Shown: in pieces, positions 16,018 to 39,530 of the stretch
How the letters are laid out: each line of letters opens with the position of its first letter
Position numbering within the stretch: the first letter of the stretch is position 1
Assembly (NCBI GenBank): GCA_029204225.1
Contig: CM055098.1
Span: 53,695,824-53,759,823 of the forward strand
Direction: 5' to 3'
Length of the DNA: 64,000 nucleotides
DNA from: Diphasiastrum complanatum
Taxonomy: Eukaryota > Streptophyta > Lycopodiopsida > Lycopodiales > Lycopodiaceae
The notes under the pieces: model-generated
What the model was told of the DNA's origin: nothing
The model's input: only the letters and a program-made list of their open reading frames with translations
Databases searched by the model: none
Program-made: the position numbers and the translations under genes

Positions 16018-16061
16018 TTTGTGGACAAGGACTCCCCTTGAGGTATCATTAATTTTTTCTT

Positions 16062-17551
16062 GTGATTGGAATTGGAAGTGCTTATTCTACTTTTTTTAGA
16101 ATAGTTAAAGAAGCCTTTTCTCAATTGTTGGTGAAGAAAACTTATCTTCCTCATCCATATCGGGTAAGACTAGCAAGAAATTATTATAATGACGGAATGT
16201 TCAAAGTAGTTGGCCAACTACTTCATATAACTCAATTATACAAATCAGAATATGGTGAGCTCAATTACAACGATTGCAATAATATTTTCCTTGATATTGA
16301 AAATGTTCTAAAATACATTATTCGATTCTATAAACTAGACGAACAACAAGTAAATGTAAAGATCATTATAGTAATAAAATTGGATGAATCTGAAATTATC
16401 AAAGGTCAAAAGTTGGATCAAGTGAGTGTCACTTTGATGAAAAAATTAGATACAGATGATCGAACGTTTAGTGTTCAATCAAAAAATCACATATGGTGGT
16501 TGGCGGCATTCCAAGTTTTCTTTTCAATTTTTTATTTTAAGTATCATTATTAACATTGAATAAATTGCCATTTTTTGTTACCATGTCATGCATTACTTGA
16601 CTTTCATGGATATTTTCATGATCAAATTATGGCGAGATTATAAAGAGACATTTGGAGGGTGAGAAATTTACAGTCGAAAACCATGGAAGTTTTCAAATTC
16701 AATGGCACCTTGCAAGGGATTTGAAAACATTGAAATGTATGTATAATGTCTCTCATGGGGAAACGCCAAAACATCCATGTTTTTATTGCATGAAGGATTG
16801 CTACAATATAAATTTGGGACGACCAGAACACGAGAAGCAGAAGATCCAAATTTGAAAAGTGTGTTGTCAATTCCATTAAAAAATGTTAAAGGAAATGTCA
16901 TCATTGAAAGAAGTGAACTCTTCGGAAAAAAAGAAAATTTTTCTAATAAGCCATCAATTGGAGGTGCTAAAGCAAGAATATTCTTATCCAATCACACATT
17001 CAAAGAATCTAGTGTCAGATACGGAATTTGAAAAGAAATTGTTCAAGCCACATGAACACTGGAAGTCAAATGTGGAACAACTTACACATATTCATATGAA
17101 GATATGAGGACTTTGCAAAATCATTGCACAACATTTGTGAAATTTGTACGAGATTGGTGGGGAGAAGATCACGTTCACATTACATGGTACTAATCTATTT
17201 CATTATATGGTACTTATCTCATTCATGATTATGTTTTTTTCTACTGATGTTATTTATTTCAACTCTTGTTTGCAGCACATGTTTCTTCATCATGCAACTT
17301 ATTTTGCAAAGGAATATGGGAGCTTGAGTATCTGGTCATCACAAGGCATGGAAAAATCACATTGGCAAGCAAGAGAAGCATTTCAAAGAGCTACAAATAA
17401 TGGTGGACACAATTCAAAAAACAAATATTTAGCTCAACTTTTTCAGTGGGTTTATAGAAGAGCACAATTTAGATATCAAGCTAAAAATTCGCCAAATGTT
17501 ATGATTTTTTGTAAGGCATTCAAATTCATAACAAAAGAGAGATCCTTGTAA
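16062..17551 (+). pseudogene. Copy A gene 1: transposase-like pseudogene
   Basis: Broken into at least three frame pieces. Piece 1 (16,062-16,530) has IVKEAFSQLL, DIENVLKYIIRFYKL and IKLDESEIIKGQKL, matching copy C residue by residue in conserved blocks. Piece 2 (about 16,640-17,105) has QWHLARDLKTLKCMYNVSHG and KHPCFYC. Piece 3 (about 17,280-17,551) has GSLSIWSSQGMEKSHWQARE. The conserved Asp-bearing LDES and RDLK blocks and the late Glu-bearing block look like a DDE-type transposase, and the HPC[FL]YC pair could bind zinc. The last block recalls the catalytic-Glu segment of RAG1/Transib-like enzymes, but I cannot assign a superfamily. Divergence from copy C is high, so this is a different subfamily. 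The 3' end overlaps copy A gene 2 on the other strand. Confidence 0.65.
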
Positions 17552-19127
17552 TATATCAATAATCTATCACAGAACATTGTTTGATTTTCATCATCATCCT
17601 CTTCAAGATTCAAACGGATGGTATTGTCATGAAGGAATAATTTTCTTTCATATGGATCCAAAAATTCTAAATTTTTCCTTTTGGTCATATCTACGTAACC
17701 CGAATAAAGGGCCATTGGAGATGATCTTTTTGTAGTATCATTGGGAGTATAACCCAATATTTCAATGGACAAATCTCTTTTCACAAAAACTATTTTATAT
17801 GTTCCTCTGGAGTAAGTATGGCCTCCTAAACTAGCAGATAATGACTTGATGGCCATAATGACAGTGGCATCATATGGATTAAAAGATCAATGATATATAC
17901 AAATCTTATTTTCTTGAAATTTTTCAGATAATGAGAAAGAGACATATCCTTTCTCCCATGTGATACACTTCGAAGGCCTCCATGTCTCATACAAAAGGCA
18001 CCTAGTTCAAGAGCATCATGTAAAAGAGTCAAGAAAATAAATTTAGCATGATAGATAACAAAATAACCTCAAACTTCAACATTTGTTTGAAAAAAAAAAA
18101 AACAACACAATATCAATACCAATATACTATCTACTTACCAGATCATTATCATCGTATTCAACGATGTCTTTTCTGCTAATGTCATGTCCTCCAATGGCCT
18201 CTACACTACTTGAGGGGATATATTGAATCTTGGAGGATATTGTTTTTGAAATTCCCAAAATTCCTCCTCAGTAGGCAAAGTTTTTTCATAGGCTTTCGAT
18301 TTTTCAATTATGGCCTTTAATGCCTCCTTGCCAGATTTTCAATTGTCATCTTTATCATAATCTATCTCACTTTCAAGATCATTATAAGTGTAATCAATAA
18401 TGTTAGAAAATGCTGATAAATGTTGTGCAAACATTGAGAGAATTTCATCCTCTCATATATTCAAAACATCTTCTATATCGTTAAAAGAATTATAACTATC
18501 ATTATTTATAAAGTATACGAGAACATCGAGTAGAATTAATGGATTAATGGGAGTTGCAGTTGGAAGCGAGCCAGAGAGGATTATAGAATGAGGGAGAGTT
18601 TGCTCATAATCTGAAGCCATGGATGCTTCGGCTTCAATTCCTATATCAGTATCTACTTCATCTACATCATCTGGAGAAGATGTGGATGCTTCAATTATGG
18701 GAACAACAGAAGATTCAACAGACTCGTCATCTAGAGTTTCTATAGATATATAAAAGACAAATGCCATGCCTTTGATCAGAAGGCGACATTTTCTCTTGTG
18801 GATATCGCAATATATATTTCTCTTAAAATGTTCATGCAAGTTAGTGTACTTTCTATCACGTTTGTGCTTAGAGGATGGTTGAGAATATACAAGGTCATGA
18901 AAATGAACGAAACAAAAACTATCTATATCTCTAACAACCGTAGTAATAATTTGAGAAATATTATCAATAAGAGAAATTAAATTATAATGATTCTCATAAA
19001 CTAGCTTATCGATATCAAAAGGTGCAAAAACAATAGTGGAAAAATACTCCAATTTCTCAGATGGAATGTCACTGCCATTCAAAAAATCTAGAAGTTTGTC
19101 GTATGAGAACCTTGAAGAACTAGCCAT
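17476..19127 (-). pseudogene. Copy A gene 2: MASSS protein, unknown function
   Basis: Starts MASSSRFSYDKLLDFL at 19,127. Conserved with copy C gene 2 in order: N-terminal region with EYF/DYFHS; a CDIHKRKCRLL block (C-rich, at about 18,770-18,810) against CPYCNKKCRLV in copy C; an acidic, Ser-rich middle; EEEFWEFQ; SLSHYLKNF; VIMAIKSLSASLGGH; IVFVKRDL; and a C-terminal LFLHDNTI block followed by Glu/Asp residues. Stops and likely introns interrupt it (18,440, 18,340, 18,020 regions). I recognise no domain. Conservation between two diverged copies suggests it was under selection in the element. It converges with gene 1 and diverges from gene 3. Confidence 0.6.
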
Positions 19128-19887
19128 ATTGTACCTAATATCGGTTCAACGTGCGTGAATGATTCTGGTCGGGGCCCCACCCTTGAACAAGGCACGTGTT
19201 GATTCAATATTCAATTCTAAAGCTTCAACAAGGGCGTGCGCTAAACCGATATTACAGTTCTGCAAATCTACTATCGGTTCAGTGCACCCCATAGATGAAT
19301 GATCAGTTCAGATACTGATGACACATGTCAATTCGATATCGTAGTGGAAAAAGGATCTTGAAATCATGACAATATTAATTTTCCTGATATTTATGGCCTA
19401 TCTCAATCAGTCTCAGCCATACAAGACATGAATTGCAATCTGGGGCCTTAAATGTCATCTAATCATTGTACATGTACCTGGAATGTAATTATTGGTCCAT
19501 AATTAGTCTTTTCAATTAATCATGAGTGCTGACCCACAAACATTTATTAATGATTTGATTTTCAAGATTACAAAAGATTTCGAATTTGATGATCATCGTA
19601 TTCCATACCTCGATATCTACAATGTCCACGAGGGCAATCATTATGGATTATCGCCCTATATAAACACAAACATGATTGTAAAATTTTTTACTTTCAGCAT
19701 TTGACCAGCATGACATCAGTTCAGCGCACCCAACCCGATTGTGATATTTTTGTTCTACACTCCCACGCGTCCATTCGCTATCATCTATTTTTTGACTTTT
19801 CTGTCTGATATCGGTTCGGTGCGCCTGAACTACATTCGTAACTGGGGACCTTTCTACACGCATGTTGATTTGATATTGGGTCTGTGA
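19128..19887. promoter_or_regulatory. Copy A divergent gene 2/gene 3 promoter region
   Basis: This gap separates the minus-strand MASSS gene from the plus-strand H3-like gene. It holds repeated variants of ATATCGGTTCA.[CG]TGC: about 19,137-19,156, 19,242-19,251 (inverted), 19,270-19,287 and 19,804-19,825, plus a weaker one near 19,868. The corresponding region of copy C has its own repeated motif, so repeated sites here appear to be a feature of the family rather than chance. Function is inferred only from position. Confidence 0.45.
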
Positions 19888-20424
19888 ATGGCCTTCATGA
19901 AGCAAACAACACAGATTGATCCTGGAAGTGTCCCAATGCAAGGAGGTTGCCAGGGAAATCTACCACTACTTTCTAGTCCAAGGGGCAGACCACATGATCT
20001 GCCATGGCTGAAGGATATCCGGAGGCTTCAGAAGACAAATAATCTTTTGATTCTGAAAGCTCACATCCAGATATCAATCAGACAGGTAACAAGAAGCCTC
20101 TCTCATAATGTGAGATGGAAAATCATGATAGTTGAAGCTCTGCACATAACTTATGAGGATTTCCAGGTGAAATTCTTTTTAGATTCTATTGTTGCAGCAG
20201 TTCATGCCAAGAGAGTGACTATTATGTCGAAGTATTTCACCATTGTGTTCAGGCTACGGAACACATATGGCAAATTTGTTGAGTACTTCAGACCAGTTCC
20301 ATCCTCTCCTTCAAAACCAGCTGTAGAAATTCAAAATTCTATTCATTTTTTAATGATAATTCATTTAGGAATTATCTATATCACTTCTTGCACCCCCTAC
20401 ACTTGCATTTGTAACTTCTCCTAA
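19888..20424 (+). pseudogene. Copy A gene 3: diverged histone H3/CENH3-like domain
   Basis: Opens MAFMKQTTQIDPGS, resembling the H3 tail start (M-A-x-x-K-Q-T). From about residue 40: PWLKDIRRLQKT, NNLLILKAH, VRWKIMIVEALHITYEDF and AVHAKRVTIMSKYF. These follow the H3 order alphaN, alpha1, loop 1 ending RW (as in CENH3), alpha2, and the loop-2 signature AKRVTIM. The fold is more degenerate than in copies B and C (for example IMSKYF for IMPKDF). After about residue 125 the protein departs from the other copies and ends early, so the linker and protease part are not visible. Probably a decayed member. Confidence 0.7.
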
Positions 20425-21229: not shown

Positions 21230-21323
21230 TATACAGGCTAATTTTCTACCAATATGGCTACTCGGCTAACCCAAGTAGCCGGCTACGGGATCAATGCTCG
21301 ACTGATATGATGATACATTAGAG

Positions 21324-21350
21324 GAGTTCTCAATATCAAAAAGACCCTTT
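21324..21350 (+). repeat. Left TIR of copy B
   Basis: Begins GAGTTCTCAATATC and ends GACCCTTT. It is the exact reverse complement of 26,801-26,827. The same sequence starts copy C at 28,342. The eight bases before it (CATTAGAG) are also the same in copies B and C. Confidence 0.92.
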
Positions 21351-21840
21351 AAGGAATGCCATGTAGGATATACAAAAATATCAAAATAAATAAAACAATA
21401 TCGTTTATTTGCTTGCCCACACCACTCCCAAGGCCTCCCCAACTCCCAATGATCTAACCACAGTGTCTATAGTCACAGTTAAGAACTGTTAACAGTTTGC
21501 AGTATAACTTGACTAAATTCAAAAATATTCCCTCCATTGGTTACGAAAAGGGCAATATTTTCACTCGATCTAGAATATGACCGCCATCCCCAAATTTGAA
21601 TCAGGAAAAATGCAAAATGTTTACATATGCATTCCTTCCACGAGAATGGAAATATGAGCGGCAACTATCTATTGAAATGAAAAAATGAGCGGCATTTCCA
21701 AATTTGAATCAAGCATACAAGCATGGAGATTGGATTGATTGTACATAGTATATAATATAATCAAAGATGAGTATTTTGTTTTGCTTCATAGAATCTGGTC
21801 ATAGTACTTTGATGCAACTGATTACTCTATTATTTTTTTG

Positions 21841-23040
21841 ATGATGACATTATATCATCTACATGTGGATATCCCTATTGATTTGGCACCTTTGTAGAGA
21901 AGAGGAGGCAAAGGAGTTCAAATATCCGCTGAAGATTGTTCTTGTTACAGGGCAGAAGGAAAGAAAAACGTGGATTTGTGGACAGATGGAACATTATATC
22001 CACAAGATCCAAGCACTTTGACACATCCCACATTCTCTTCAATAACTCATTTAGTTACATGGATATGCAATGGGCATAGTGGATTACTAGGATATTGTGA
22101 AAGATTCCAAAACCATGGAAAACAACTTTATATGAATAAAGTTCACTTTTTAGAAGGTGAGTTAATTCGGATATCCTCTTATTGTCAGAATAGAGATTGT
22201 CATCTCCAAAAGACGTTAGAAGAAAATGAACAACTTAAAAAAAATAATGAATTATTACAGAAGATAGCAATTGATATAAAATCAGAAATAGAGCAAATGC
22301 AATCAGTCTTACAGTCTATTCGTATTGAAAACTTACAATTATTAAAGGATGTAGATTTGGTAAAGAAGAAGGCTGAAAGTAAGAAGCGAAAGCGACAAAG
22401 TTGCAAGGATATTCAAACGCTTTCAAAAGGAGTTTATCGAAATAGAAGGATCTGTGCATTCAAGTAAGCATATTCTAAATTTTGTAAGTTTTTCAATGAC
22501 ATTTGGATTTAATTTTAGCTATGGTGATATTTAGTTAACTATCTGTTTCTTTTGCAGATCTGCATTAGTAGCTCCTCGGAATATTAAAGACAATGCTTCA
22601 CTAGGAATGTCATTGGGCACAATATTGACTTGCAAATCCACTAAGCGTATCATGATGAACAATAGGATTTCAAATGTAAAGTGTAAAATAGCAGAGTCTT
22701 TGATGGTGGACCTTTAAAATATTTTAGATAAGACTATAGTTCAGGGTGCTTGTGATTTTGCAGGTATTAGTAGGGAAGCATATGCAACAATACTTAAACT
22801 AATTAGAGAAGCTTTTAAGCAAGTTCAAATTAGAAAAGTCCCAATTCCTAGGACATATCACTTGAAGAAAGAGAGGGATACATTAAACATAGGTATGCAT
22901 AAGATCACTGGAACTCCATTTCATATTGAGGAGTTGTATGAAACTGATGGAAGATCGATATTCTATAATTCATCAAACAATTTATTTGTTGATCTAAATT
23001 ACTTGCTGAGATCCATCGTCACATTCTATGATATAACCTA
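21841..23040 (+). pseudogene. Copy B gene 1: 5' exons of transposase-like gene
   Basis: Starts MMTLYHLHVDIPIDLAPL, then a TAG at 21,895. It continues in frame with TLTHPTFSSITHLVTWICNG and a coiled-coil segment at about 22,140-22,350 rich in Leu/Glu/Lys heptads (LQKTLEENEQLKKNNELLQK), then a basic cluster KKKAESKKRKR that could be a nuclear localisation signal. Exon 1 ends CAFK at about 22,465 (donor AA|GTAAGC); exon 2 resumes at about 22,559 after TTTTGCAG with SALVAPRNI. A TAA at 22,717 breaks exon 2. The frame then runs KLIREAFKQVQIRK and IGMHKITGT up to YDITYE, where the internal deletion joins it to the 5' part of gene 3. Copy B keeps 82 codons of coiled coil that copy C has lost. Confidence 0.65.
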
Positions 23041-23073
23041 TGAAAGGTGTCCGGTATCACATAGTTCACGCCC

Positions 23074-24801
23074 ATGGATAGGAGAAAGCAGACAAGGAGA
23101 GACTTCTTCTCTCCTAGCTCATCCTCATCCTAGACCTAGAACGCGCAACCGCAGCAGGTGGCTCTCTGAGATACGCAAGTATCAGAGGTCAACAGCTCTG
23201 TTGATCCCAAGAGCTTCATTCTACCGTGCTATCCTGAACATAACAAGAAATGATCTCGGACAACACGTTAGATTCACACCGAGTGCTCTTCAGTGTCTTC
23301 AAGAGGCTGCTGAAGATTATATTAGCCTTTTTTTTGAGGATTCTTTTTTGCTTGCCATCCATACCAAGAGGGTTACCATAATGCCCAAGGATTTTCAGCT
23401 TCTGATGAGAATGAGGGATAGGTACTGTAGGTTACATGTATCTCAGCCTGCTGCTCCTAGACCAACTCTTGTAGATAGGACTCATCTTCCTACGAAGCGT
23501 CCTAGGAAGCAGACAGCCCCCAAGCGTGCTCCTAAGAAAGTGAAGCCTAACCCTTCAGATTCTGTGAAGCCTATCCCAGAATCCATTGTAGATAATGTTG
23601 TTGTTGATAATGCTGTAAATATAGCTACCTCTGTTTTGGATACTCCTATAATTGCTATGGATACTACACATCCACCTCCTCCTCCTCCTCCTCCTCCCAA
23701 TTTCTATACATATATAAATTCGGATGATTATCTTAAATTTGAGAAAGACATATCGGATGCTATAGATACAATTGGTACTCCTTTTTCTTTTAGAATAGAT
23801 GAACTTGATTTTAGTATTAATTTTAGAGTTCTAGATTGCCTGGATCTCAAAGACAGACGGGATTCTATCAGTGATCCTGTGATAGAGTCCGGACTGACAC
23901 TCTTGCAATTTGACATTGCAAGAGATTCATCAAACAAGTTGTTGGTGCTGAGTAACTTTCTGCTCTAGGCCTTCAAGGAGAATAATGACACATGGTCACA
24001 GTGTCTGACAAGTGAATTCACACCAACAACAAAGCATCTGGTCATTCTTTATCATACCAAGTAAGATATATTAAGTGCTTTTTTCTGTTTTATGCATTAC
24101 ATTTTCAATTTAAATAGTTCTCAGAATTGCCGCTAAAGTACTTTCAATCTAATTTTGCAGTGGCCACTGGAGTTTAAACCTGATCTCTATTAAGAAAATT
24201 GTAAATAATATTATTAAATGTTCTTGTGTCAAGATGAATTTGGCAAGAAATATGCATAAGGATGTAGATATATACATTCCATATCTAAGTAAATATATTC
24301 CTACAGATGTTCCCCATTCCGTGGACTGGCAGATCGTTAGCTTGGAGGTAAATTCTGTCTTTCTTAATAGCATTTTGAAATCAGTATTCTAATGAAATAT
24401 TTTCAATCTAATTCATTCTGTTTCATAATTGATTTCTTGTGTGCTGAATTATTTTGCAGTCACCCCAGCAAAATGATTCATTCAACTGTGGGTGGTACAC
24501 ATTGTACAATGCCAAGTTGTTTTTTCAGTGGTTCATCCTTCAACAAGATGTTGATATTTCTAAGGTAATAAATTTTGTTTATTCTTATTTTGAAATCATG
24601 ATTAGTTTTCTATCCCGGTGATGTTATTGGCCATTACTAATACATGAATGTTCTATTTTGCAGTTTACACTTCCTGAGTACACATCAAGCTAGGTGTACA
24701 GATTTAGACAAGAAATTATCCTGAGTATACTGGCTAGGGCAAGGCTTCAGCCTCCCATTATTGATGATGGTGCAAAGGATGATGTAGTTGTACTAAATTA
24801 A
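23074..24801 (+). pseudogene. Copy B gene 3: CENH3-like histone fold joined to Ulp1/C48-like protease
   Basis: The original start is MDRRKQTRRDFFS at 23,074, now out of frame with the fold because of a 25-bp deletion and a 1-bp difference from copy C. The fold (about 23,160-23,430) reads WLSEIRKYQRSTALL, IPRASFYRAILNIT, VRFTPSALQCLQEAAEDY and AIHTKRVTIMPKDFQL: alphaN to alpha3 of H3, with CENH3-type residues (LLIPxASF, LQEAAEDY, KDF) and loop 1 one residue longer than canonical H3. A basic linker KRPRKQTAPKRAPKK, a run of nine prolines and a novel acidic region follow. Exon ends 24,060 (GTAAGA); exons 24,161-24,347, 24,460-24,564 and 24,664-24,801 encode NGHWSLNLISI, then SPQQNDSFNCGWYTLY. 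His and Cys are 70 residues apart with a Gln before Cys, as in Ulp1/SENP C48 peptidases. The expected Asp about 17 residues after His is not evident. Stops at 23,966 and 24,691 kill this copy. Confidence 0.82.
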
Positions 24802-25124
24802 GATAGAAAAAATATAGATAGCATAGAACAAAAATACATGTATAGACTTCATAGAAAAATATACATTGATATATCATATGTTGCTCCAGTTTATGAATTT
24901 GGGAGCACAAAATACATGTATAGATGCCCAACTTGGGCTTTCATTTATTGAATGAAAGGGTGTATACACAGATTTTTACTAAAGTTTATTTGAAACTATT
25001 GTTCTCCCACAATGGTGATTGTTGTAGGTAGATCTTTGTAGCACATTATCAGCTCCTGTCTTTTTCGCATCTGTGACATGGCAAATATTAGTGAATGTGC
25101 AATTGTAAATGATGACATTTTCTA

Positions 25125-26369
25125 TTATTTTGTTCTATTTTGAAATGGCAATAAACATAAAGTACTTACGAGTCTTCCGTTGATGATAAATCTGAAATAT
25201 GTTGGTAGATTGGTTTGTAATAGCATGAGTTCTGTTTTGATAAAATCAAGCTTCCAGTGCTCTTCCACCTCAACCATAGTCAAATATTCCTCATTGTAGA
25301 TAATGCTTATCTCCATTCGGTTTGTGTGATCATTTAGTTCAAAGTCTTGATCCAGTGGTAGCCATGTACCTTCAATTTTCTTGTATCTCTGGTAGCTAAA
25401 TGTGAGACTGAGCATTTGCTTTTCGATATGATAACGAAAGATCATTGAGGACTTTTTAATCCTGCATTCTATGTCATTATTTGTTTTACTATCCCAGCCT
25501 TGATCCATGAGATCTGACAAAGTCTCATCTGATAAATCCTTGCAAACAAATAAAGTTGGTGTCCTACGAACACTAGCACTCGAGAAAAAATCAACAAATG
25601 TATGCAAATGAGATAAACCAACTTAGGTGAACAATTTTCGAGCCTGTGCTTATCTTCATAGCATTTTTAATATCAATGAGTAGCTTGCATCTCAAGGATT
25701 CAGAAACAATGCTGTCAGGAGTAGGCCACTCATCACTTTGAAAACTAGGCAATGGAATTGCTTCGAGCTTGCCAAAACCTCCATTTGTTTGTGGCGTATA
25801 TAAAGATTCATAAAAATAGATACCACAATCTACAAGTTCCTTTGGACTTCTTCCTCTGTATTGTAGCTTTCCAACATCAGAGTGAATCACATCTAATATT
25901 CCTGCAAGTGATTGTGCGGGCTCCCATTCACTTATGCATGATGGATATGAATCTGAAAGAAAAAAACAATGTTGAAGCATTTAAATCATAATCTGAAGAG
26001 CATCAATAAAGGAAATCACCTATGATTGTTGTAGAGTGCATATGTTTTGATATACTTACAATTACATTTTTTATGATCATGATAATTGATATCATGTACT
26101 TTGATTTCTGAATGCATATATACATGTTGCACTAAGAATTCTGATATCCATTGATCTCTCGGGGTAGTCTTAAACTCCAAAATTTTTGCTTTCCAATAAG
26201 ATTTGTAAGTCATTTTTGCTCTTTTCTTTTGTCAAAAATTGCCCTTTGATGATGGATGCAGCAATACCCATGAGTTCTTCGTATATTTTGTTGGCTTCCA
26301 GTTATCAGCTTCATCTTTCTCATTGTAAAGAATCACAGAATCGATTGTAGATCTGGGTCTCCTCGCCAT
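25125..26369 (-). pseudogene. Copy B gene 4: unknown protein with weakly BAH-like N-terminus
   Basis: Reading from an ATG at 26,369: MARRPRSTIDSVILYNEKDE, NSWVLLHPSS, a TGA at about 26,240, then YWKAKILEFKTTPRDQW and VQHVYMHSEIKVHDIN. The pattern W-V-L...YW-x-A-x-I-L-E...W...VY-x-x-S-E-I is reminiscent of a BAH chromatin-reading domain, but the match is by eye and weak. After an intron-like gap the second part (25,980-25,600) has EWEPAQSLAGILDVIHSDVG and RSPKELVDCGIYFYE; the third (25,600-25,125) has DIECRIKKSSMIFRYHIEKQ and IEGTWLPLDQDFEL. It sits just inside the right TIR and converges with gene 3. Copies A and C do not retain this end. No function can be assigned. Confidence 0.5.
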
Positions 26370-26800
26370 TGCTATTTTCAAAGCTTGGGCGCCAAAAATC
26401 TCTCTGATATGTTACTTAATTTTAATTTTTCATATCACATTTAATCTAATGTGAATGCCAACATAGTCACAGTTACTGCGTATACCATATTTTATGTAAC
26501 TGTACATACTATATTTCTATAACTGTAACTAGTATAGTTAGAAAATTTCATTATACTAACCAGCATAGTAAAGTAAATTTAACTTGAGATATTGACGTCG
26601 GACAGATTAGCACGTGTCGGGCAGGAAGAAGAAACCAATGGGATACGTCCATGCTGCCTGGACACAAATTTCAAAGTTTTCTATACTGCATTTTTATTTT
26701 TTACTTAATTTGAACTACGTTACGTAGATTTCAAATCTATTCATTTTGATTGGGCCTGGTGACGGTCGAAACTAAAGAAAAAAAATAAAAGTATCTTTAC

Positions 26801-27473
<673 letters not shown>

Positions 27474-27492
<19 letters not shown>

Positions 27493-28270: not shown

Positions 28271-28341
28271 TGGCTAGTCGCTATTTTTAGTAAGGTTTTC
28301 ATTTATGGCGATGCTTGGATGTGTGTTCAAGTTCATTAGAG

Positions 28342-28368
28342 GAGTTCTCAATATCAAAAAGACCCTTT
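28342..28368 (+). repeat. Left TIR of copy C
   Basis: Identical to the 27-bp TIR of copy B (starts GAGTTCTCAATATC). Sequence stays nearly the same as copy B inward, and the preceding CATTAGAG is also shared. Confidence 0.9.
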
Positions 28369-28856
28369 AAGGAATGCCATGTAGGATATAGAAAAATATC
28401 AAAATAAAAAAAATAATATTGTTTATTTGCTTGTCCCCACCACTCCCAAGGCCTCCCCAACTCCCAATGATCTAACCATAGTGTTTATAGTCACAGTTAA
28501 GAACTGTAAACAGTTCGCAATATAACTTGACTAAATTCAAAAATATTCTCTCCATTGGTTACGAAAAGGGCAATATTTTCACTGGATCTAGAATATGACC
28601 GTCATCCCCAAATCCGAATCAGGAAAAATTGCAAAATGTTTACATATGCATTCCTTCCACGAGAATGGAAATATGAGTGCCAACTACCTATTGGAATGAA
28701 AAAATGAGCGGCATTTCCAAATTTGAATCAAGCATACAAGAATGGAGATTGGATTGATCGTACATAGTATATAATATAATCAAAGATGAGTATTTTGTTT
28801 TGCTTCATATAATCTAGTCATAGTACTTTGATGAAACTGATTACTCTATTGTTTTT

Positions 28857-31252
28857 TTGATGATGGCATTGTATCATCTACATGTGGATATCCCTATTGA
28901 TTTGGCACCTTTGCAGAGAAGAGGAGGCAAAGGAATTCAAATATCTGTTGAGGATCGTTCTCGTTTCAGGGCAGAAGGAAAAAAAAACTTGGATTTGTGG
29001 ATAGATGGAATATTATATTTACAAGATCCAAACACTTTGACACATCCCACATTCTCTTCAATAACTCATTTAGTTACATGGATATGCAATGGGCATATTG
29101 AAAACTTACAATTATTGAAAGATGTGGATTTGGCAAAGAAAAAGGCTACAGGTAAGAAGCAAAAGCGACAAAGTTGCAAGGATATTCAAACGCTTTCAAA
29201 AGGAGGTTATCGAAATAGAAGAATCTGTGCATTCAAGTAAGCATATTCTAATTTTTGTATGTTTTTTAATGACATTTGGATTTAATTTAAGCTATGGTGA
29301 TATTATGTTAACTATCTGTTTTTTTTGCAGATCTGCATTAGTAGCTCCTCGGAATATTAAAGACAATGTTTCACTAGGAATGTCATTGGGCACAATATTG
29401 ACTTGCAAATCCACTGAGTGTATCATGATGAACAATAGGATTTCAAATGTAAAGTTTAAAATAGCAGAGTCTTTGATGGTGGACATTCAAATTTTTTTAG
29501 ATAAGACTATAGTTCAGGGTGCTTGTGATTTTGCAGGTATTAGTAGGGAAGCATATGCAACAATATTTAAACTAATTAGAGAAGCTTTTAAACAAGTTCA
29601 AATTAGAAAACTCCCAATCCCTAGGACATATCACTTGAAGAAAGAGAGAGATACATTAAACATAGGTATGCATAAGATCACTGGAACTCTATTTCATATT
29701 GAGGAGGTGTATGAAACTGATGGAAGATCGATATCTATAATTCATCAAACAACTTATTTGTTGATCTAAATTACTTGCTGAGATACATCGTCACATTCTA
29801 TGATATAACCTATGAAAAGGTGAATGAAAAAATAATCATATTACTTAAGTTAGATGAGTCAGAAATAGTGAAAGGGCAGAAGATGGAGAGAGTTAGTATA
29901 ACTCTCATGAATGGCGCTCTATCACAAACGGAGAACCAAGAAGATTTCAGATTCAGTGTCCAGTTAGAAAATGATATATGGTGGTAGGTAGCATTTCAGA
30001 TAACTAGCCTCATTATTACATTACATTCATTGAATAGTATTAAATCATTGTAAACTAAGTCTGATTAATTCTTTGGACAGGTTCTGAAGGAGGATCATGA
30101 TATATTATCATGGATATTCTCAAAGACACCTTATCCTAGGATCATCAAGAACCATATGGATGGAGGACTTCTCAATGTTCCAGGAGTTGGAGACTTCAAT
30201 GTTGAATGGCACTTGGTAGGTGATTTGAAAACATTGAAATGTATGTATAATGTCTCTCACGGTGCTACATCAAAACACCCTTGTTTGTACTGCATGAAAA
30301 TGGCAAAAGATATAACTAGGAGTACAGGAATCAGTAGAGAATATGCAGATCCAAATTGGAAGCCTGTGCTGTCTATCCCCTTGAAAAATGTGCATGTTTG
30401 CACTCTTCATGCAAAAGTTAGATTAATAGAAAAGCTCATTATATTCATATAGTTTTTGCTTGGAATACTAAGCTAGCATCATTAGCAAAGGAAGCTATCT
30501 CTCGATTAGAAGATGTTTTATCAAAAGCAGGACTCCATAAGGGACATGTCAAAATTCAAAAAGATGAAAAGCTTTCAGGAAAGAATGGGAACATGCCAAC
30601 TAAGCCAAGCATAGGAGGAGCAAAAGCACGTCGTTTCCTATCAAATCATATTGGTAAGGCTTCTAATATTCAACACTCAGTCTGGACAGATATTATTGTT
30701 GTCACTCAGGACTTCAAAAAAGACAGTAAAACTAGAGTACTAAAAGTTGATATATGGAAGAAGCTTGATAGTATGATTGCTATTTTAAAAAAAGAAAAAT
30801 ACTCTGATATTGATAAGAAAGCTGTCCAAAGGACTTGTGTCAAGTTTGTTAATGCAATATCAAAAGCATGGGGAGAAGATCACATCACTCATTACATGGT
30901 TAGTATAAAATTTTCAAGATGCTTTCAATTTTTCATATATATTTAGATCCAAACATAAGACTAACATTATGATTTTGACATATGCAGCACATACTAAGAG
31001 ATCATACAACATTTTTTGCAAACACATATGTAAGCTTGAGTATATGGTCATCACAAGGGATGGAGAAGTCACATTGGCAAGCATGAGCAACATTTCATCG
31101 AAATACACAACATGGAGGAACCAATGAAAAATGAAACTACATTTGTCAATTGTTTCAATGCTTCTACCGTAGTGTTCAGATTAACAAAGTCTACACAATA
31201 CAACAAGTTTAGAAAAGCATGCAAGTTCATACAGGAAGAGAAAACTAGATGA
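28857..31252 (+). pseudogene. Copy C gene 1: transposase-like, several exons
   Basis: Starts MMALYHLHVDIPIDLAPL; exon 1 ends CAFK at about 29,239, exon 2 resumes at about 29,332. Compared with copy B, 246 bp (82 codons, coiled coil) are missing in frame between CNGH and IENLQ. Later blocks: EIVKGQKMERVSITLM, ENDIWW, EWHLVGDLKTLKCMYNVSHG, HPCLYC (30,276-30,293), a basic KPSIGGAKARRFLSNHIG, KFVNAISKAWGEDHITHYM, and after an intron SLSIWSSQGMEKSHWQA near 31,035-31,085, ending about 31,252. Frame is broken near 29,740 and 30,420 and by stops at 29,986, 31,085 and others. Candidate catalytic acids are in LDES, GDLK and GMEK. Probably a DDE-fold cut-and-paste transposase; its superfamily is not one I can name. 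Confidence 0.65.
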
Positions 31253-31386: not shown

Positions 31387-32903
31387 CTATTCATCATCAG
31401 ATCGTGTATCAGATTCTATGGTAGTATTGTCATGAAGAAATTCTCTGCTAACGTATGCATCTAATAGATGTGCATTATTCTTATTTCCACTAAGCTCAAT
31501 ATGAGTGGAATACAATGAATAATGAGAGTTCCTTAAAGGAACATTCCCATTAGTAAAACCTAAATGTTCAAAACATAAAATCTTTTGACAAAAATGATCT
31601 TATTTGTCTTAACAAATTTATGTCCTCCTAGGTAAAATGATAAAGCTTTAACTGCCATTATCAGATTCTCCCCAACTAGGCTCAACTTGGAATGAGCAAT
31701 ACAGATCTCATTCTTCAGGAAATGCCTAAGATAGTGGCCAAGTCCACTATTCCTCTGGAACGAGGATGCGTGTTGTCTGAAACGACCTCGTCTCGCAGCA
31801 AAGTCATCAAATATGAGAGCATCCTGCAATAGGAAATATGTTAGCAAAAACACGTTTAGTGATTAAAAACATTGTAATGCAAGGAAGTTTAAACACTTAC
31901 ACATTTTTCATCATCAGCAGCAACCAGATCAAGATGATCAATATAATGACCACGTACTGAAGTGGAATCATCAGCGAAATGCATTAATGATGGATGAGGG
32001 AAGTCCATCTGGGATTGAAATGTCGTGAATTCTTCATTGGATGGTCTGCCTCGTCCATCCTTAGCAATATTTGATAAAGCCTTAGTCAGACATTCTTCAC
32101 CGATCATAAGTCCCTCCTCATCATCAAAATCAATACCAGCAACAAGGTCATCTGTTTCAAAATCTACAAAGTCGGAGAATTCAAAAATTGTGTCAGATAA
32201 TAAACATAGAACCTCATCTTCACAATAGTCAAAAAATTTACATAAATCAGCAGTAGTAAATTATACATTGTCATTAATATAATATACAGACAAATTGAAA
32301 AAGACATTTAGACTCCTCTATCGGGATGTATTCATCAGCAGATGTATTTTGGCCGATAAAAGAATCGCGGAGAACATCAGTATTTACATCAATAAAGTCA
32401 CTTTCCTTATCAGGAGTGTCAATAAGGAAGTGATTGATATCCTTAATAGCTGACTGAACAGAGGATAATGCAAAAGGATGGTCAGCAATAGATACTTCCT
32501 CATCATCTGGAATCTGAACTAAAAGGAAAAGTACAAAATCATTCTGATATTCTACCAATCGACATTTCTTGTTGCAATAAGGACACATTGAACTGCTTTT
32601 GAAAAGATCAAACAATTTGGTGAACATTCTATGTAGTCTATGTCTGAAAGCTGGAAAGAAATGAACAAGATTAGTATAATGCATGTACTGGAGTGAACCT
32701 ATGGAGAAAACAGGGTTACTAAGTATATCTCTGAATTTAACATAATGTTCATAAAATACATTAGAATTTGGTTGTGCATTCCTGAAAACATGTAGATATG
32801 GCCTGAATAGGCTGTGAAAGTAGTCTAGATTTTCAGTAATCCCAAATTCACTAAGAAATGAACTCAAGCCTGAATCTCGTGAGGATCCTGAGGAAGAGGC
32901 CAT
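31387..32903 (-). pseudogene. Copy C gene 2: MASSS protein, unknown function
   Basis: Starts MASSSGSSRDSGLSSFLSEF at 32,903. Blocks in order: DYFHSLFRPYLHVFR; FFPAFRHRLHRMFTKLFDLF; CPYCNKKCRLVEYQNDFVLF (possible Cys pair zinc site); an acidic region; FTTADLCKFFDYCEDE; EECLTKALSNIAKDGRGRPS; then, after an intron near 31,890-31,830, ALIFDDFAARRGRF, GHYLRHFLKN, VKALSFYLGGHKF, IIFVKRF, and after a frameshift a C-terminal REFLHDNTTIESD ending at 31,387. The same blocks occur in copy A. No domain recognised. It converges with gene 1 (135-bp gap) and diverges from gene 3. Confidence 0.6.
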
Positions 32904-33710
32904 GGAAATAATGTAGATATCACACTTGTGCACGAGGGAGAACTGAAACAAAACTAACTATCAAGATTGCGCACAAGAGAGATATATACGGCAGGTAGAT
33001 ACCGAATATCGCACTTGTGCGCAACTAGGTAGCGTTGGAAGCAAATAGACAACAATGTGCGCGCACAAGACCGATATGCCGCGAATTTTGAGAACAGAAA
33101 AAGTAAAAAATTAATCGAGTTTTGTGCCCTTTATACTAAATTTTTGCACGTGTGGTAAACGGTCAAAGGACATGTGTCTACTTTCAGTTGGACTACAGGA
33201 ACTGGCACGTGTGAGGTGACACCTGGACACGTGTGAAATGATAACTGTACACATGTCTCATGTTCATTCGTGTGTTCGACAACACGTGTCGCTCGCGCAT
33301 TCGTTCGTACAAATCTCACACGTGTAAAGTGATAGAGTGACATGTGTCGCTCTTGCATTGGACCATACAACTCCCACACGTGTGACAGGACGTTCTTTTG
33401 CACGTGCGAACCGCGATATAAAATCACAAATTTCGATGAATTTTTTTCACTTTTTTTTCGCTCCGCATATCGCACTTGTGCACATTCTTCACAATCGATA
33501 TTTTTCTTAATGCCTTCCATGCGTACAGGTCCGATACATCTGCCTACGTGTCTCCTTGTATCGCACTTGTGCACCTTTCTTCAATACTAATCTATCTCTC
33601 TTGTAATAACCTCGCACAGGTCCGATATACCGTACATTTTGTCCATACATATCGGTCTTCTGTTCATCCTAGCCGTCATGCACAACTTCACTATCCCATA
33701 GTACACGTCC
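32904..33710. promoter_or_regulatory. Copy C divergent gene 2/gene 3 promoter with two motif families
   Basis: Motif 1, ATATCGCACTTGTGC, occurs at 33,006-33,020, 33,467-33,481 and 33,558-33,572, with inverted forms (GCGCACAAG..CGATAT) at 32,969-32,985 and 33,059-33,076. Motif 2, a CACGTG-core (G-box/ABRE-like) ACACGTGT, occurs at about 33,147, 33,203, 33,227, 33,283, 33,318, 33,376 and 33,401. A TATA-like GATATAAAATC is at about 33,414 on the plus strand, 290 bp before the gene 3 ATG. The density is far above that of flanking DNA. Confidence 0.55.
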
Positions 33711-34715
33711 ATGGATAGGAAAAAGCAGACAAGGAGGGACTTCTTCTCTGCTAGCTCGTCCTCAGCTCCTGTGGTTGCCATTACACCTCCTGCAGACCTA
33801 GAACGTGCAACCGCAGTAGGTGGCTCTCTGAGATACATTAAGTATCAAAGATCCACCACTCTGTTGATTCCAAGAGCTCCATTCTACCGTGCTGTAAGAA
33901 ACATAACTAGAAATGATTTCGAACAGTTGGTTAGATTCACACCCAGTGCTTTTCAGTGCCTTCAGGAGGCTGTTGAAGATTACATAAGCCCGTTTTTCGA
34001 AGATTCATTTTTGCTGGCAATCCATTCCAAGAGAGTCACCATAATGCCCAAGGATTTTCAGCTCCCGATGAGAATGAGAGAGAGGTTTTGCAAATTGCAC
34101 GTATCTTAGCCTGCTGCTCCCAAACCAACTCCTCTAGATAGGATTGATCTTCCTACCAAGAGACCTCGGAAGCAGGCAGCACCAAAGAGAGCTCCAAAGA
34201 AAGTAAGGAGGGTAGACACCACAGAAACCCTAAACCCTAACTCGGAATCAATTGTAGATAACACTGCTCTTGATATTGTTGTACATATAGCTACATCTGC
34301 TTTGGATACCCCTTCAATCCCTGTAGATACTACACATCCACCACCTCCTCCTCCTCCCTCAAATCTTTATACATATATAGATTCCGATGACTATCTTAAA
34401 TTTGAGAAGGAAATATCCGATGCTATAGATACAATTGGTACTCCTTTTTGTTTTAGACTAGATAAACTTGATTTTAGTATAAATTATAGAGTTCTTGATT
34501 GTTTGGATCTCAAAGACAGACGGGCTTCTATTAGTGATCCTGTGATAGAGCCCGAGCTTACACTCTTGCAATATGACATTGCAAGAGATTCATCTAACGA
34601 GTTGTTGGTGCTGAGTAATTTTTTGCTTCGGGCCTTCAAGGAGAATAATGACACATTGTCACAGTGTCTGACTAGTGGATTCACACCAGCAACAAAATAT
34701 CTGCTCATCCCTTAT
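33711..34715 (+). pseudogene. Copy C gene 3: CENH3-like histone with tail, basic linker and extension
   Basis: Best preserved H3-like frame: MDRKKQTRRDFFSASSSS tail (compare M-A-R-T-K-Q-T-A-R of H3), then KYQRSTTLLIPRAPFYRA, VRFTPSAFQCLQEAVEDY, FFEDSFLLAIHSKRV, TIMPKDFQLPMRMRERF. One TAG at 34,107 (CAG in copy B) interrupts; the same frame then continues through KRPRKQAAPKRAPKKVRR, seven prolines, YIDSDDYLKFEKEISDAIDT, DFSINYRVLDCLDLKDRR, up to TKYLLIPYHT at 34,715. One base more than copy B in the alphaN region makes it read SLRYIKYQ rather than LSEIRKYQ. The protease exons seen in copy B are lost at the right truncation. CENH3 likeness rests on LLIPxAxF, LQEAxEDY and KDF. Confidence 0.85.
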
Positions 34716-34720
34716 CATAC

Positions 34721-35048
34721 ATCATTAAGCAACACCAATCTTGGTTTTGGAGTCAATTCTTGTCAAATTTATCATTTGTCTTGACTATTCTTGATAGTTT
34801 TGAGTTCCTATCATATTGTAATTTGATTTCAGGCTACAGTCCATACTCTGACAAAATTTCACATGTGTGAAACCAGCAAGTACAATTCCCTTTCATTTAT
34901 GATTGTTCTTGTTAGATTTTCTCATCGAAATTTGATCTAGATTGATCTAAATCTTGTGTAGATTGATAGATCAATTGTATCTAACATCCAATCACTCTTG
35001 TGGATCATTTTAGGATCCATTCTTGGTCCAATTTTGTAGATTCCCACA
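34721..35048 (+). repeat. Copia-type LTR end
   Basis: Sequence foreign to copy C begins at about 34,720 and ends TTCCCACA at 35,048, abutting an exact iMet primer site. It includes a CACATGTGTGAAACC motif at about 34,862. The exact left boundary is not visible. Insertion or recombination of this element removed the right half of copy C. Confidence 0.55.
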
Positions 35049-35060
35049 TGGTATCAGAGC
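35049..35060 (+). other. Primer-binding site (iMet type)
   Basis: TGGTATCAGAGC follows an LTR end CA exactly, complementary to initiator tRNA-Met. Confidence 0.8.
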
Positions 35061-35304
35061 CAAGTACAAGAAGATTTATTGAGATTTGATGGAGTTGATC
35101 CAAAACTAAGCCCAAATTAGCAAGTCTTAGTTAATTTTGATGTGGCTAGTTGGATAGGATAGATATACTCAAAATTTATGGACAAAAACTTGTTGTGGGC
35201 TGTAGAGGTACCAGTTTTGGAGCCTTACGTTTCAGTTTGATGCTAAATCTCCCAAATTAGCAAGTTTGTGAAAACTAGCTAATTTTAGGTAGAGAGTTTG
35301 AATT

Positions 35305-35422
35305 TTAGAGATTGATTGGATGCTTCTACTTGGTTGGGTGGTTTCTCCACAGTGTGTTATCCTTTTGTGTTTAGGATTTGTAGGCAGGATCTAAGGAGCT
35401 TCCCTTATAGTGGTATCAGAGC
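35305..35422 (+). repeat. Second LTR end plus iMet primer site
   Basis: TTAGAGATTGATTGGATGC through CTTCCCTTATA (35,305-35,409) is repeated at 45,758-45,863. Here it is followed by TGGTATCAGAGC at 35,411-35,422, so it is the U5 end of an LTR. Downstream to 36,600 is leader-like DNA without coding signal. Confidence 0.65.
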
Positions 35423-36609
35423 AAGGCTTACAAGCTTGGAGAGGTGGTGCTTTTCATTGGAGCTTGGTGGCATTCAACTAGTATTCTCATCCAAGGAGAG
35501 GAGCAAGGTTGCAAGTTGGTGGATCTTTCCAAATTCAATTTGCATGTTCCATATCTCTCTCAAATTCATTGTGGTTTATGGAGAATTGTGCTAGGAAATA
35601 AATTTTGGTGTCTTTTTTGGAGTTTTGCATGTGTAGCTCAAAACTAGTGAAGGATCTGAAATTTCCAGCAAGTTAATTCACTTTGAAGTAGTTGAAATTC
35701 AGGTTGCATGTTGGATCTTCCCATGTATTTGGATTCTAGGCTCTTTTGTAGCCAAATTTGGCTTGTTTTCCATTATTTTGGCACAAAATTGAGGGTAGAA
35801 TTCAAAATCCAGCAAGATCAAATCAATTGGTTGCTTATAACTCTGTATTTTGGATTGCATGTGGTTTTGGAAAATGTTCTTGCCATTGATCTCCAATTGT
35901 GCATGGTGAAAAAACCAAGGAAGGGCTAAAATTCATGATTTTTTCTTGTTTTTTTCATGGAATTGGATGGTAGGAGGTTGTTGAACATCAATTGAAGCTG
36001 GAAAAAAATGAATTATAGTCTTTTGAAGCTGTCCTAGAAGTTAGAGCCAAGAATTCTAGCAGTTGGGTTTGTAGGAAGTCAAAAAGTGTCAAAAATTGAC
36101 CAATTTTGGTGAATTTTGGGGATGGATTTTTCTAAATCCATAAGGGGATCATTCTGGATTTTTTCCATCATGATTTATTTTTCTTTTTACCTTCCCAGCA
36201 AGCTATCAAACATGTAAATTGATGGGTAGAGGCTTATATTTCAATTCCATCAAGTTTGTACAATTTTGACTTCTAGAAACCAAGAATTCATGGTTTCCAG
36301 CCCATACTGCTTCATAGGATCTGTATGAAGGCTTCATGAAACTCTTAGAGACCATTTGAGATTGTTTGGATCATCACTTTTAGGCTTGGTTGAGTGTTTG
36401 CATGTTTTTTGACATATAGGTCTTGAAAAAGTGCACCCTCCTACAACTTGATTGGCTGTTCTGAACTCGCACATGTGAGTCCTAGGTGGCAGGCTGACAT
36501 GGCAAGTGTCTTTTTCATTGGGTCTCCCTCTGTACTGAGCTTTATAGCACCCAAATTGGTGTCCTGTAGCCAAAGATATGAGCATATGAAGTTTTGCAAA
36601 GGCTGGTCG

Positions 36610-38330
36610 TTTGTTGCATCCGTTAGATATCCCAGATAAGAAATGGGAAAGCATATCTATGATTTTGTAGTTGGACCTACAAAGACCCAACAATAAAATG
36701 ATTCTATTTGGGTTGTAATGGATCGGTTAACTAAGTTAGCTGCATTCATACCAGTCAAGTCAACTATAAAGGCTTCTGATTTAGCCTAGATCTTTGTTGA
36801 AAGATTATTTCGGTTGTATGGTCTGCCAAGTGACATTGTTAGTGATAGAGATCCTAAGTTCACAGGTCATGTTTGGTTAGCAGTATTCCATAAATCGAAA
36901 ACTTTTGCGAGTTTAAGTTCTTCTGATCATCCTGAATCAGATGGCCAGACAGAAAGGACTAATCAAACTATGGAAGATATTTTGAGGATGTATGGTTCTC
37001 ACATGAAATCTCATTGGGAAGATTATCTCCCACTGGTTGAGTTTGTATATAATAGTAGAAAACAATCTGCTACAGGTTACAGTCCTTTTATGCTTATGTA
37101 CGGTTTTCAACCTAGATCTCCAGTAAATGTTGAGACGAAGTCTATTAAGATCCAGAAGGTTGCTGATTTTTTGCATGATATGCAAGAAATGTTGCAAGTG
37201 GCTAAGGATAGTATCCGAAGTGCTCAGGATAGTGCTGAACACTATACCGATCTTAAGAGATCTCCAAGAGATTTTAAAGTTGATGACTGGGTATATCTTA
37301 GGAATCCAAAAGATTTTAAGACATTACGTACATGAAAGCATTATAAGCTGTCTACCCGTTATTGAGGACCTTTCAGGATTGTATGTAGAATTGGTTCTTT
37401 GGCGTACGAACTCGATCTTCAAGGAAAATTGAATGCATACCTAGTGTTTCATGTAAGTCGTTTGAAACTAAGTTTACATGATGGTGATACAGTGTAAAAA
37501 TTACAGCAAATAAGGATCCTAAAACACTTGAAATGATGAGGGAAACAATAGATTATGATTTCATAAGATTAGCACAAGTTGAACCATCAAAATCCATCAA
37601 AAATCTATGCTTGAACCTCACTAAATGGCCCAAATCCTTGAAGAAGGCTTCACACGTGTGAAAGTACGGCCTCCCACAGTCTGAGTACTGTACACCAGAC
37701 CTACATTCAATCCTATAATAATTAGTAATCACAAGTACTCAAACAATTATGAACATAGAGAGCAATTGCACCATTATGAGAGAAAAAACATGAAATTGCT
37801 TGATTAATTTTGGTGAGATATCATCACCTATATATACATGATCCATCACGGTTTTGGGCAGGTATGAGTAGCCCTAAACCTATCCCTAATGCTAATTTTG
37901 GTGGATCTTTCATCCCTACCAAGTTAGGGTTGGAATCTTGGAGATCCCTCAACAATGCAAAAATTACCAAAAATAGCTCCTATTTTTTCTCCCTTGTATC
38001 TAAGCATAATTTGGACTCATTCCAAAGGTTCTAACACTTAGGTCTACTTGAGAACATCCTTATGAATGGAATCCTATGCTATTTGGCACGTGTGACAAGC
38101 CACATCATGACCATCTAACTATTTACAAGTCATATGACCAAAACTAGTCAAGCTAGAATTGTGAATTTTTAACATACAGTTGGATCGGATGAGGATTTAT
38201 CCCATTTGGAAGATTTGTCGCTTAGTGTACCTTTGAAATTTGAGAAAGTGCTCAGAACCAGAGATAAACAATTGAGAAATCGTTTTATCTCTGAGTGCTT
38301 AATTCGGTGGAAGGGTCAGACGATGATGAT
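36610..38330 (+). pseudogene. Ty3/gypsy chromovirus integrase plus chromodomain, interrupted by a solo LTR
   Basis: Reads HPLDIPDKKWESISM, IWVVMDRLTKLAAFIPV, YGLPSDIVSDRDPKF, SSDHPESDGQTERTNQTMED (catalytic DDE region: D in MDR, D in SDRD, E in TERTN), PLVEFVYNS, GYSPFMLMYG, VDDWVYLR, GPFRIVCRIGS and LDLQGKLNAY. Stops at several places. After the inserted solo LTR (37,493-38,174) the frame resumes with VPLKFEKVLRTRDKQLRNRF and ECLIRWKG, a truncated chromodomain. Same family as 12,310-12,880 and 56,390-56,640. RT and gag are absent; DNA before 36,610 is unrelated leader sequence, so this is a chimaera or deletion product. Confidence 0.85.
37493..38174 (+). repeat. Solo LTR with 5-bp target duplication
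   Basis: A 682-bp insert starts TGTAAAAATTAC and ends GAATTTTTAACA, with TG/CA ends, and is flanked by TACAG on both sides (37,488-37,492 and 38,175-38,179). Removing it and one TACAG rejoins the gypsy integrase C-terminus to its chromodomain. TATATATAC at about 37,828 may be its TATA box. It contains CACACGTGTGAAAG, a motif seen in other LTRs here. No internal region is present, so it formed by LTR-LTR recombination after insertion into the gypsy element. Confidence 0.9.
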
Positions 38331-38608
38331 TCGAATGAGAAAGTTGATAACATTGTTGACAGATCCCCACCTCTAGAGGATCTGTTGGTACCTTTTTTTT
38401 CTTTATTTCTTGCTTACGGCTTAACGGCTAGTATTCTGCCTGTCAGCAAAGGCTGTGGGCACTTCTTGAGATTATCGTTCTTATTTAAAGGCCCAAATTA
38501 GGGAGAAGGGACGGATTGGTCATTTTAGTGTAGATTTGTCCTGCCTTTCAGAGGATAACTCAAGGATGAACTCTCTTGAACGCACTTACATTCATACAAA
38601 GATGCAAG

Positions 38609-39530
38609 CCAAGAACGTTCATTCACAGATCAGCATACAGCCCAAATGAACGTTCAATGGATTCTACAGCTACCTACTCTAGAACGAACTGAATCAGAGC
38701 CTGCATTATACTAACACTGAGCTACACTTGCATAAATTGACAAAACAAGAACCAAAAACTAATCTACAGCATTTTAGAAGTCCAAGAATCAAGAAACCAA
38801 CCAGTCTATTGATTCTTGACATCCCAAGAACATCAAGAACTGGAATGTTAGAGAATATGCAAGATTTACACCACAGATCCAGCCTATTTAGTTTACTTGA
38901 ATGTTGGTTCCTACATTATTCCACAAAAAAGAAAAGAAACTAATCCACTCTAGGAAAGCAGCAAATCTAATCCACTCTACAGTCCACAACCACACACAAA
39001 AGGAGGGAAGAGCAAGATTATAAATGCATCACTCAAGAAACAAGTATGATCAAGGAGCTCAATGGATGCACCAAACTCGTGAAGGCTCTTCTCATTTCAG
39101 CATGGAGTTGATACAATTCACAAAAAGCTCCTCTACTCAAAGAAGGAGTCTCTTAAATAAGCAAGAGAGCTTCTTAGGTGGCATCCTAGTGGAATTTCCA
39201 CATTTCACAAATTACGAGTGGAATAATGCTCTCCACTAGAGGTCACCATCAAAAGGTGGCTCACTCTACTTTCTTTAAGAGGGTTCTACTTGCATTTAAT
39301 AAATTTGCCTAGAAATACTAGTTCCTACATGGTCATTCCATCTTCCGGGATTCACCACGAGGCTTACACAGTTCTTGCTTGCCATTCCTAACTAGCATTT
39401 CTCGGCTCTCATACTCGGCTCTCAGTCTTCGTTGGTTTTGTCTTCTCAGAGACCTCCTCGGTTTAAGGTGAGAGGTGCTCTTGAGTTGGTCTGTCCAAGT
39501 ATTTTGGGGATTCGTCAGAATCAGCCAACA
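38609..39530 (-). repeat. 3' LTR of the gag-only element
   Basis: Shares CCAAGAAC.TTCATTCA and then the whole stretch from AATCCACTCTAGGAAAGCA to CAGAATCAGCCAACA with 44,656-45,292. It holds a roughly 295-bp segment after 38,634 that the other LTR lacks most of. The left boundary is uncertain; it may extend left of 38,609. Confidence 0.75.

Follow-up and report, generated by a model that had tools for sequence, protein, structure and literature searches.

A histone H3-family gene in RAG1/Transib-fold DNA transposons of the lycophyte Diphasiastrum complanatum, with a possible role as an anti-silencing histone

The closest described precedent for a transposon that carries a histone gene is the capture of canonical histone H3 by hAT elements in fungi, in which, according to the excerpt of the source available, the housekeeping H3 coding sequence of a Dothideomycete was amplified to hundreds of copies and inactivated by repeat-induced point mutation (RIP) (PMC6710886). 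Anti-silencing factors are already known from transposons, and the available section on Vandal elements, Mutator-like elements without terminal inverted repeats (non-TIR MULEs), ties their Ulp1-bearing gene KIU (Kaonashi) to escape from silencing (PMC13317346). With respect to transposases, the accessible part of one source gives animals and fungi as hosts of RAG1L and Transib elements, with 5-bp target-site duplications (PMC7204232), and an excerpt of another marks the CMC(T) supergroup by C(2)C and H(3-4)H motifs between the second D and the E (PMC12730594). A search of the open-licence literature of PubMed Central brought up neither a plant transposon nor a RAG1-fold transposon that owns a histone gene. 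Here, we describe a 64,000-nucleotide stretch of Diphasiastrum complanatum (contig CM055098.1, positions 53,695,824 to 53,759,823; hereafter the window) that holds three copies of a histone gene, A (19888), B (23074), and C (33711), within such elements. We tentatively read the open reading frame (ORF) of copy C, with a confidence not far short of evenly balanced, as the N-terminal part of a gene in a lineage of four-gene RAG1/Transib-fold DNA transposons, in which an H3 variant would act as an anti-silencing histone.

The elements resemble the fungal hAT case in that a DNA transposon carries the H3 sequence, but differ in that the histone is a divergent variant, carried by several element families under selection and joined in one of them to a Ulp1-type domain. 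Like KIU, the gene of that family is a transposon gene with a Ulp1 domain; in KIU the partner domain is VANC and the transposase is MULE-type, whereas here they are histone H3 and a RAG1-fold transposase.

The histone gene and the elements that carry it

The following parts of the histone gene were recognized in the window.

33711..34106, + strand: histone H3 fold, first part of the gene, copy C (TAG stop at 34107-34109; matches to PF00125 and PDB H3 chains)
34110..34720, + strand: linker towards the Ulp1-type part, same frame past the stop, copy C (ORF list and alignment with copy B)
23074..24060, + strand: exon 1 of the histone-Ulp1 gene, copy B (frameshift in the tail, fold from 23159, one in-frame stop; PF00125 E 5e-23)
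24161..24347, + strand: exon 2, Ulp1-type protease part with GHWSL, copy B (frame reading)
24460..24564, + strand: exon 3, Ulp1-type part with PQQNDSFNCGW, copy B (frame reading)
24664..24801, + strand: exon 4, gene end, one in-frame stop, copy B (frame reading)
19888..20424, + strand: diverged histone gene with the tail MAFMKQT, copy A (PF00125 E 4.5e-11)

The ORF of copy C (33711-34106) is translated as MDRKKQT...KYQRSTTLLIPRAPF...LQEAVEDY...AIHSKRVTIMPKDF. It matches the core histone profile PF00125 with E 1.2e-24 (87.3 bits, cut-off 26.4) and histone H3 chains of the PDB with E 1e-21, so that the profile search suggested in a preliminary description of this DNA places the domain in the histone H3 family and bears out its statement that a protein of this family is encoded within a DNA transposon. 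For families I and II, two of the element families defined below, a copy of each reached 98 bits against PF00125. The predicted structure of the histone is of low confidence (predicted local distance difference test, pLDDT, 54), although Foldseek still puts H3 chains on top.

The TAG at 34107 interrupts a longer frame, and the same position in copy B is a glutamine codon with which the frame continues; the stop of copy C is thus a change inside a longer gene. Copies C and B align with 82% identity over 33692-34720, and because the similarity stops at about 34720, the protease exons are missing from copy C. The joined copy B exons, with X placed at stops and GT-AG exon borders read from the sequence, match the Ulp1-type peptidase profile PF02902 with E 1.1e-6 (29.1 bits, cut-off 20.7). 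Ulp1 pieces are present in five of six family I loci.

The remaining element parts in the window are as follows.

28334..28368, + strand: left terminal inverted repeat, CATTAGAGGAGTTCTC..., copy C (matches the genome-wide end)
28824..31200, + strand: RAG1-fold transposase gene, several exons, decayed, copy C (frame readings, homologues, fold of the family)
31560..32957, - strand: P2, second gene, head to head with the histone gene, copy C (ORFs; pieces in other copies)
21316..26827, + strand: copy B, an internally deleted element (left end 21316-21350, right repeat 26801-26827)
25125..26375, - strand: P4, fourth gene, copy B (ORFs; pieces in other copies)
16053..17551, + strand: diverged transposase pieces, copy A (75-77% DNA identity to two copy C pieces)
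17476..19145, - strand: P2 pieces, copy A (ORFs; order as in copy C)

A search of the host genome for further copies, also suggested in the preliminary description, located the complete elements L030 and L039 (8.7 and 9.3 kb), which contain the transposase (+), P2 (-), histone-Ulp1 (+), and P4 (-) genes; the order of the first three is the same in copies A and C. The inverted repeat of copy B is perfect over 27 bp (21324-21350 and 26801-26827), the outer eight bases of its right repeat being replaced by an AG repeat, and in complete copies the element ends reach eight bases beyond it (CATTAGAGGAGTTCTC...GAGAACTCCTCTAATG). For P2 and P4, the second and fourth genes of the element, a Pfam scan gave no family over the cut-off.

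The genome searched comprises 1.745 Gb in 5,176 contigs, of which C1 to C23 appear chromosome-sized where their length was seen (42 to 102 Mb). Allowing up to two mismatches, the family I end occurs 1,029 + 1,072 times (reversed control, 0) and the family II end 886 + 865 times (control, 0), counts that refer to ends and not to complete elements. Some ends are paired at a distance of only 1.1 to 2.6 kb, which implies short non-coding copies as well. PF00125 has at least 153 matches in the genome, a lower bound since 150 of 6,325 candidates were scored, and 13 of them are canonical H3 at about 164 bits.

Twenty loci (L021-L040) were selected by open histone frames, a choice that is biased to intact copies and includes the histone by design. 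Six belong to family I (L027, L029, L030, L037, L038, and L039), as do copies B and C of the window; in five of the six the histone is adjoined by transposase, P2, and P4 pieces, and L029 shows only histone and Ulp1. Family II (13 loci: L021-L026, L028, and L031-L036) has the same genes in another arrangement, the ends CATTAGGG, and a histone 45-52% identical to that of family I, with its own pieces of the transposase in 8/13 loci, of P2 in 10/13, and of P4 in 12/13. The single family III locus, L040, has adjoining pieces of the transposase and of P2 with identities of about 35-41% (67% for one short piece), a linker that by eye resembles that of family I, and no Ulp1 match. A fourth type (family IV) is represented by L018, a 3.3-kb locus in the family II arrangement, with P2 41-50% and the fold 46% identical to family II. 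The histone, which the preliminary description called captured, is indeed carried by the element, but the word is too weak for what is a gene conserved in several element families. At L040:2698 and L035:2059 (histone on the + strand), additional CATTAGAG ends are followed by different inner sequence, which points to more families of this lineage.

The transposase of copy C carries LDE, GDLK, C(2)C, H(4)H, and QGME motifs, has the RAG1/Transib fold as the fold of its family, and has homologues in public contigs. In an alignment of 22 rows, few of which cover the region with the last E, the PC[IL]YC and HICTLH columns correspond to C(2)C and H(3-4)H between the second D and that E. None of the Pfam transposase families passed the cut-off with ten relatives. 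Transib and RAG-like ends bear a CACWRTG-type heptamer, and EnSpm/CACTA elements have CACTA ends and a 3-bp duplication. The elements described here share with Transib and RAGL/ProtoRAG the transposase fold, the LDE and DLK columns, C(2)C with H(4)H, and inverted repeats with an initial CA; they differ in their CATTAG ends (CATTAGAG and CATTAGGG, without the heptamer), four genes, histone, plant host, and target sites. Among 12 insertions of families I and II (10 from L041-L060 by script, L030 and L039 by eye), a 5-bp duplication was found at none and 3-bp matches flanked two (2/10 in L041-L060), with no consistent duplication at perfect ends. Pfam showed no kelch domain in the scanned P2 and P4 pieces, another difference from the Transib and RAG-like group. 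The C(2)C and H(3-4)H motifs are likewise shared with EnSpm/CACTA and CMC(T), from which the elements are set apart by ends in CATTAG rather than CACTA and by the scarcity of 3-bp duplications. A RAG1 fold in a multi-gene plant transposon bears on the origin of RAG-like transposons.

Selection, tail residues, and a possible role against silencing

Codons of the fold were compared among eight copies of family I and 14 of family II, with copy A, L018, L040, and L016 excluded, and changes common to at least two copies were taken as mostly older than insertion. Counted against the majority codon rather than with a full codon model, and in copies picked for open frames, these shared changes gave nonsynonymous/synonymous site ratios of 0.12 in family I (10.5 to 24.5 changes, p 3e-10) and 0.21 in family II (7 to 10 changes, p 0.0016). 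The pairs L024/L026 and L023/L033 are near-identical outside the histone too, and a few shared changes may therefore postdate insertion. Changes confined to single copies gave 0.35 in family I (p 0.0002) and 0.70 in family II (p 0.33); shared and single changes differ with p 0.017 and p 0.07, respectively. The codon comparison shows purifying selection on the histone fold.

The N-terminal tail was compared in 25 copies, with L027, which has no in-frame start, left out of the count. The family II protein consists of the canonical H3 tail MARTKQTAR, a long linker rich in Q and P, and the fold; the tail is exact in seven of 15 copies, and the remaining eight carry one to three changes. ARTKQTAR is also exact in family IV (L018), and the window tails read MDRKKQTRRD (C), MDRRKQTRRD (B), and MAFMKQTTQI (A). 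Lysine 4 (K4) is kept in 24 of the 25 copies, namely all 15 of family II, L029, L030, L037, L038, L039, the three window copies, and L018. Lysine 9 occurs in none.

Many histone copies contain internal stops, mostly TAG, and 10 of the 12 single-base changes within the 27 bases of the family II tail are C-to-T or G-to-A, a pattern of decay that fits methylated DNA. Such stops, together with the precedent of fungal hAT elements in the excerpt cited above (PMC6710886), would suit a functionless passenger, that is, a host H3 transduplicated into the element. The divergence from host H3, the existence of at least four families, and the purifying selection on shared changes make this very improbable.

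The retention of K4, the absence of lysine 9, and selection within a silenced repetitive element are best explained, in our view, by a function as an anti-silencing histone. The element histone would pair with H4 and enter nucleosomes on element DNA; because lysine 9 is absent, it could not receive the methylation at H3K9 by which plant transposons are silenced, and its K4 tail would still suit the factors that act in active chromatin. Small ubiquitin-like modifier (SUMO) or similar marks on silencing factors may be removed by the protease part. The element would thereby bring its own anti-silencing histone, by a logic comparable to that of VANC and KIU in Vandal transposons. That the histone replaces host H3 on element chromatin and so resists H3K9me2-CHG silencing, selection having kept it through the splits between families, is plausible, although we attach more doubt than belief to it. 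If true, a selected histone variant would represent a new chromatin route for a genomic parasite and would permit a direct test of whether removing H3K9 from transposon nucleosomes suffices to free a transposon.

Several observations weigh against an anti-silencing histone. K4 is lost in family III (L040), and three plant CENH3 proteins (P0128, P0171, and P0236) have no lysine at position 9 either, so its absence also fits a CENH3-like role. A Ulp1 part was found in none of families II, III, and IV, and the protease is therefore not essential to the proposed role. All three window copies are broken or diverged, the histone and this transposase were found together in one genome only, and the loci were found via the histone, so that elements without it would escape detection. 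The support as a whole is drawn from sequence.

A structural part in the transposition machine, in which the histone-fold protein wraps or bends DNA with H4 or tethers the transposase to nucleosomes, would account for selection on the fold and for the histone standing beside transposase, P2, and P4 in five of six family I loci. H113, R116, and D123, which we take to be the residues forming the H3-H3 bundle, are kept in families I and II, as such a part would favour. It leaves the retention of an exposed K4 tail unexplained, and RAG1L and Transib systems are not described with a histone in the accessible part of PMC7204232; we regard it as unlikely.

Relation to CENH3 and to centromeres

The preliminary description assigned the fold to the type of the plant centromeric histone CENH3 and inferred that the element had captured a centromeric histone gene, which could steer its insertion to centromeric chromatin or disturb such chromatin. 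Of the traits it listed, a loop 1 one residue longer than in H3 is present in copy C; only family I (copies B and C) has this length, and families II, III, and IV and copy A have the H3 length. The motif LLIPxASF holds for copy B (LLIPRASF) and fails in copy C, which reads LLIPRAPF, and KDF is confined to some element families. Twelve sites separate 39 angiosperm CENH3 rows from 23 of H3; at these sites copies B and C show three CENH3 states (P63, A65, and D98, absent in H3), five H3 states, and four of neither; they lack I68, W84, M108, L119, K121, E125, L130, and G131. Copy A has four, four, and four, and family II three, three, and six. The type assignment thus stands for three shared states and fails at the other nine sites.

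The phylogeny asked for in the same description, which was to refute the CENH3 type if it placed the fold with canonical H3, neither refutes nor confirms it. In a tree of 73 rows and 98 columns, without fern or lycophyte CENH3 (six rows dropped, copy A included), eight element histones of families I-IV form one group (support 98/86), as do the 23 H3 (99/93) and the 39 angiosperm CENH3 (93/83). The three stems meet at one point: the element histones have a stem of their own at the parting of H3 and CENH3, the grouping with H3 is not rejected (p 0.19 in the approximately unbiased, AU, test), long branches are flagged at the joins, and a grouping with CENH3 is allowed solely via the same three-way split. 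An intermediate tree had seven rows dropped, copy A among them. The AU p of 0.025 against element plus CENH3 in the first tree was set aside on account of the long branch of copy A and of P0202, a mislabelled canonical H3. We conclude from these comparisons that the element histone is probably a branch of the H3 family in its own right, owned by transposons and sharing a few states with plant CENH3.

A MARTK start, which is also found in plant CENH3, would suit a captured CENH3, but MARTKQTAR, the family II majority form and exact in family IV, is the canonical H3 tail. The pattern KD[FW]ELARR, used to look for the host CENH3, had no match in the genome. A single exon at C3:74791650-74791751 (L061), with an H3-like alphaN (LLLRPLPF) and an unusual tail, is a candidate host CENH3; in the 3.4 kb and 6.5 kb read near it no further histone exons were found. 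This one candidate exon lacks P63 and A65 and speaks against capture from CENH3 to that extent.

Strong clustering of family I ends in one stretch of C1 would at first suit insertion at a centromere. Among the 100 end positions listed, all exact and all on C1, 28 lie at 64.97-66.68 Mb and 20 at 95.5-98.6 Mb, and the peak of 22 ends in 1 Mb among these matches exceeds all 2,000 uniform simulations (largest, 8). Two 9-kb samples from the former stretch, 280 kb apart (L065 and L066), share five blocks that are 93-96% alike, total 5.9 kb, and adjoin element sequence; Tandem Repeats Finder reported no row in one sample and one row of 47 bases in the other, hence no satellite array. Judging from the two samples read, the cluster at 64.97-66.68 Mb looks like amplified segments, and its ends are therefore not independent insertions. 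For family II (36 ends on C1), clustering was not significant (p 0.16). With the dense cluster read in this way, steering to centromeres is unsupported, and capture of a CENH3 for use at centromeric chromatin seems to us quite unlikely.

Outside the elements, none of the 120 + 120 protein matches listed, whose sequences were read in part, was recognized as an element histone. The best protein match, Quercus P0001, was rejected as a double canonical H3 and no relative of the fusion. A family of long H3 proteins of 370-430 amino acids occurs in many variants in public contigs (P0006, P0010, P0012, P0016, P0020, P0025, P0034, P0058, P0078, P0098, and P0112); they start with MARTKQTARKNTGGK or a similar sequence and continue with a long linker and a near-canonical H3 fold last, a layout like that of family II with canonical H3 states retained.

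An origin from a viral histone, or an element that is itself a viral remnant, could be argued from the many H3 proteins in public contigs that are long fusions. The tree sets the element histones as one group apart from nine long H3 proteins, the element ends are transposon inverted repeats, and none of 24 transposase pattern matches in viral contigs was confirmed by tblastn, which leaves this origin barely credible.

Other features of the window

Past the break of copy C, the stretch 34720-45863 contains an integrase-like frame at 36790-37335, read as Ty3-type, together with the repeats 35332/45786 (95%) and 38929/44691 (97%), which would fit the insertion of a retroelement into copy C. A TGGTATCAGAGC motif beside a retroelement fits a plant host. 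A tandem repeat with a 25-base unit (GTCGGTTGAGATTT...) occupies 44423-44637, and an inverted pair of 366 nt, 92% complementary and 26 kb apart, lies at 27128-27493 and 53926-54291.
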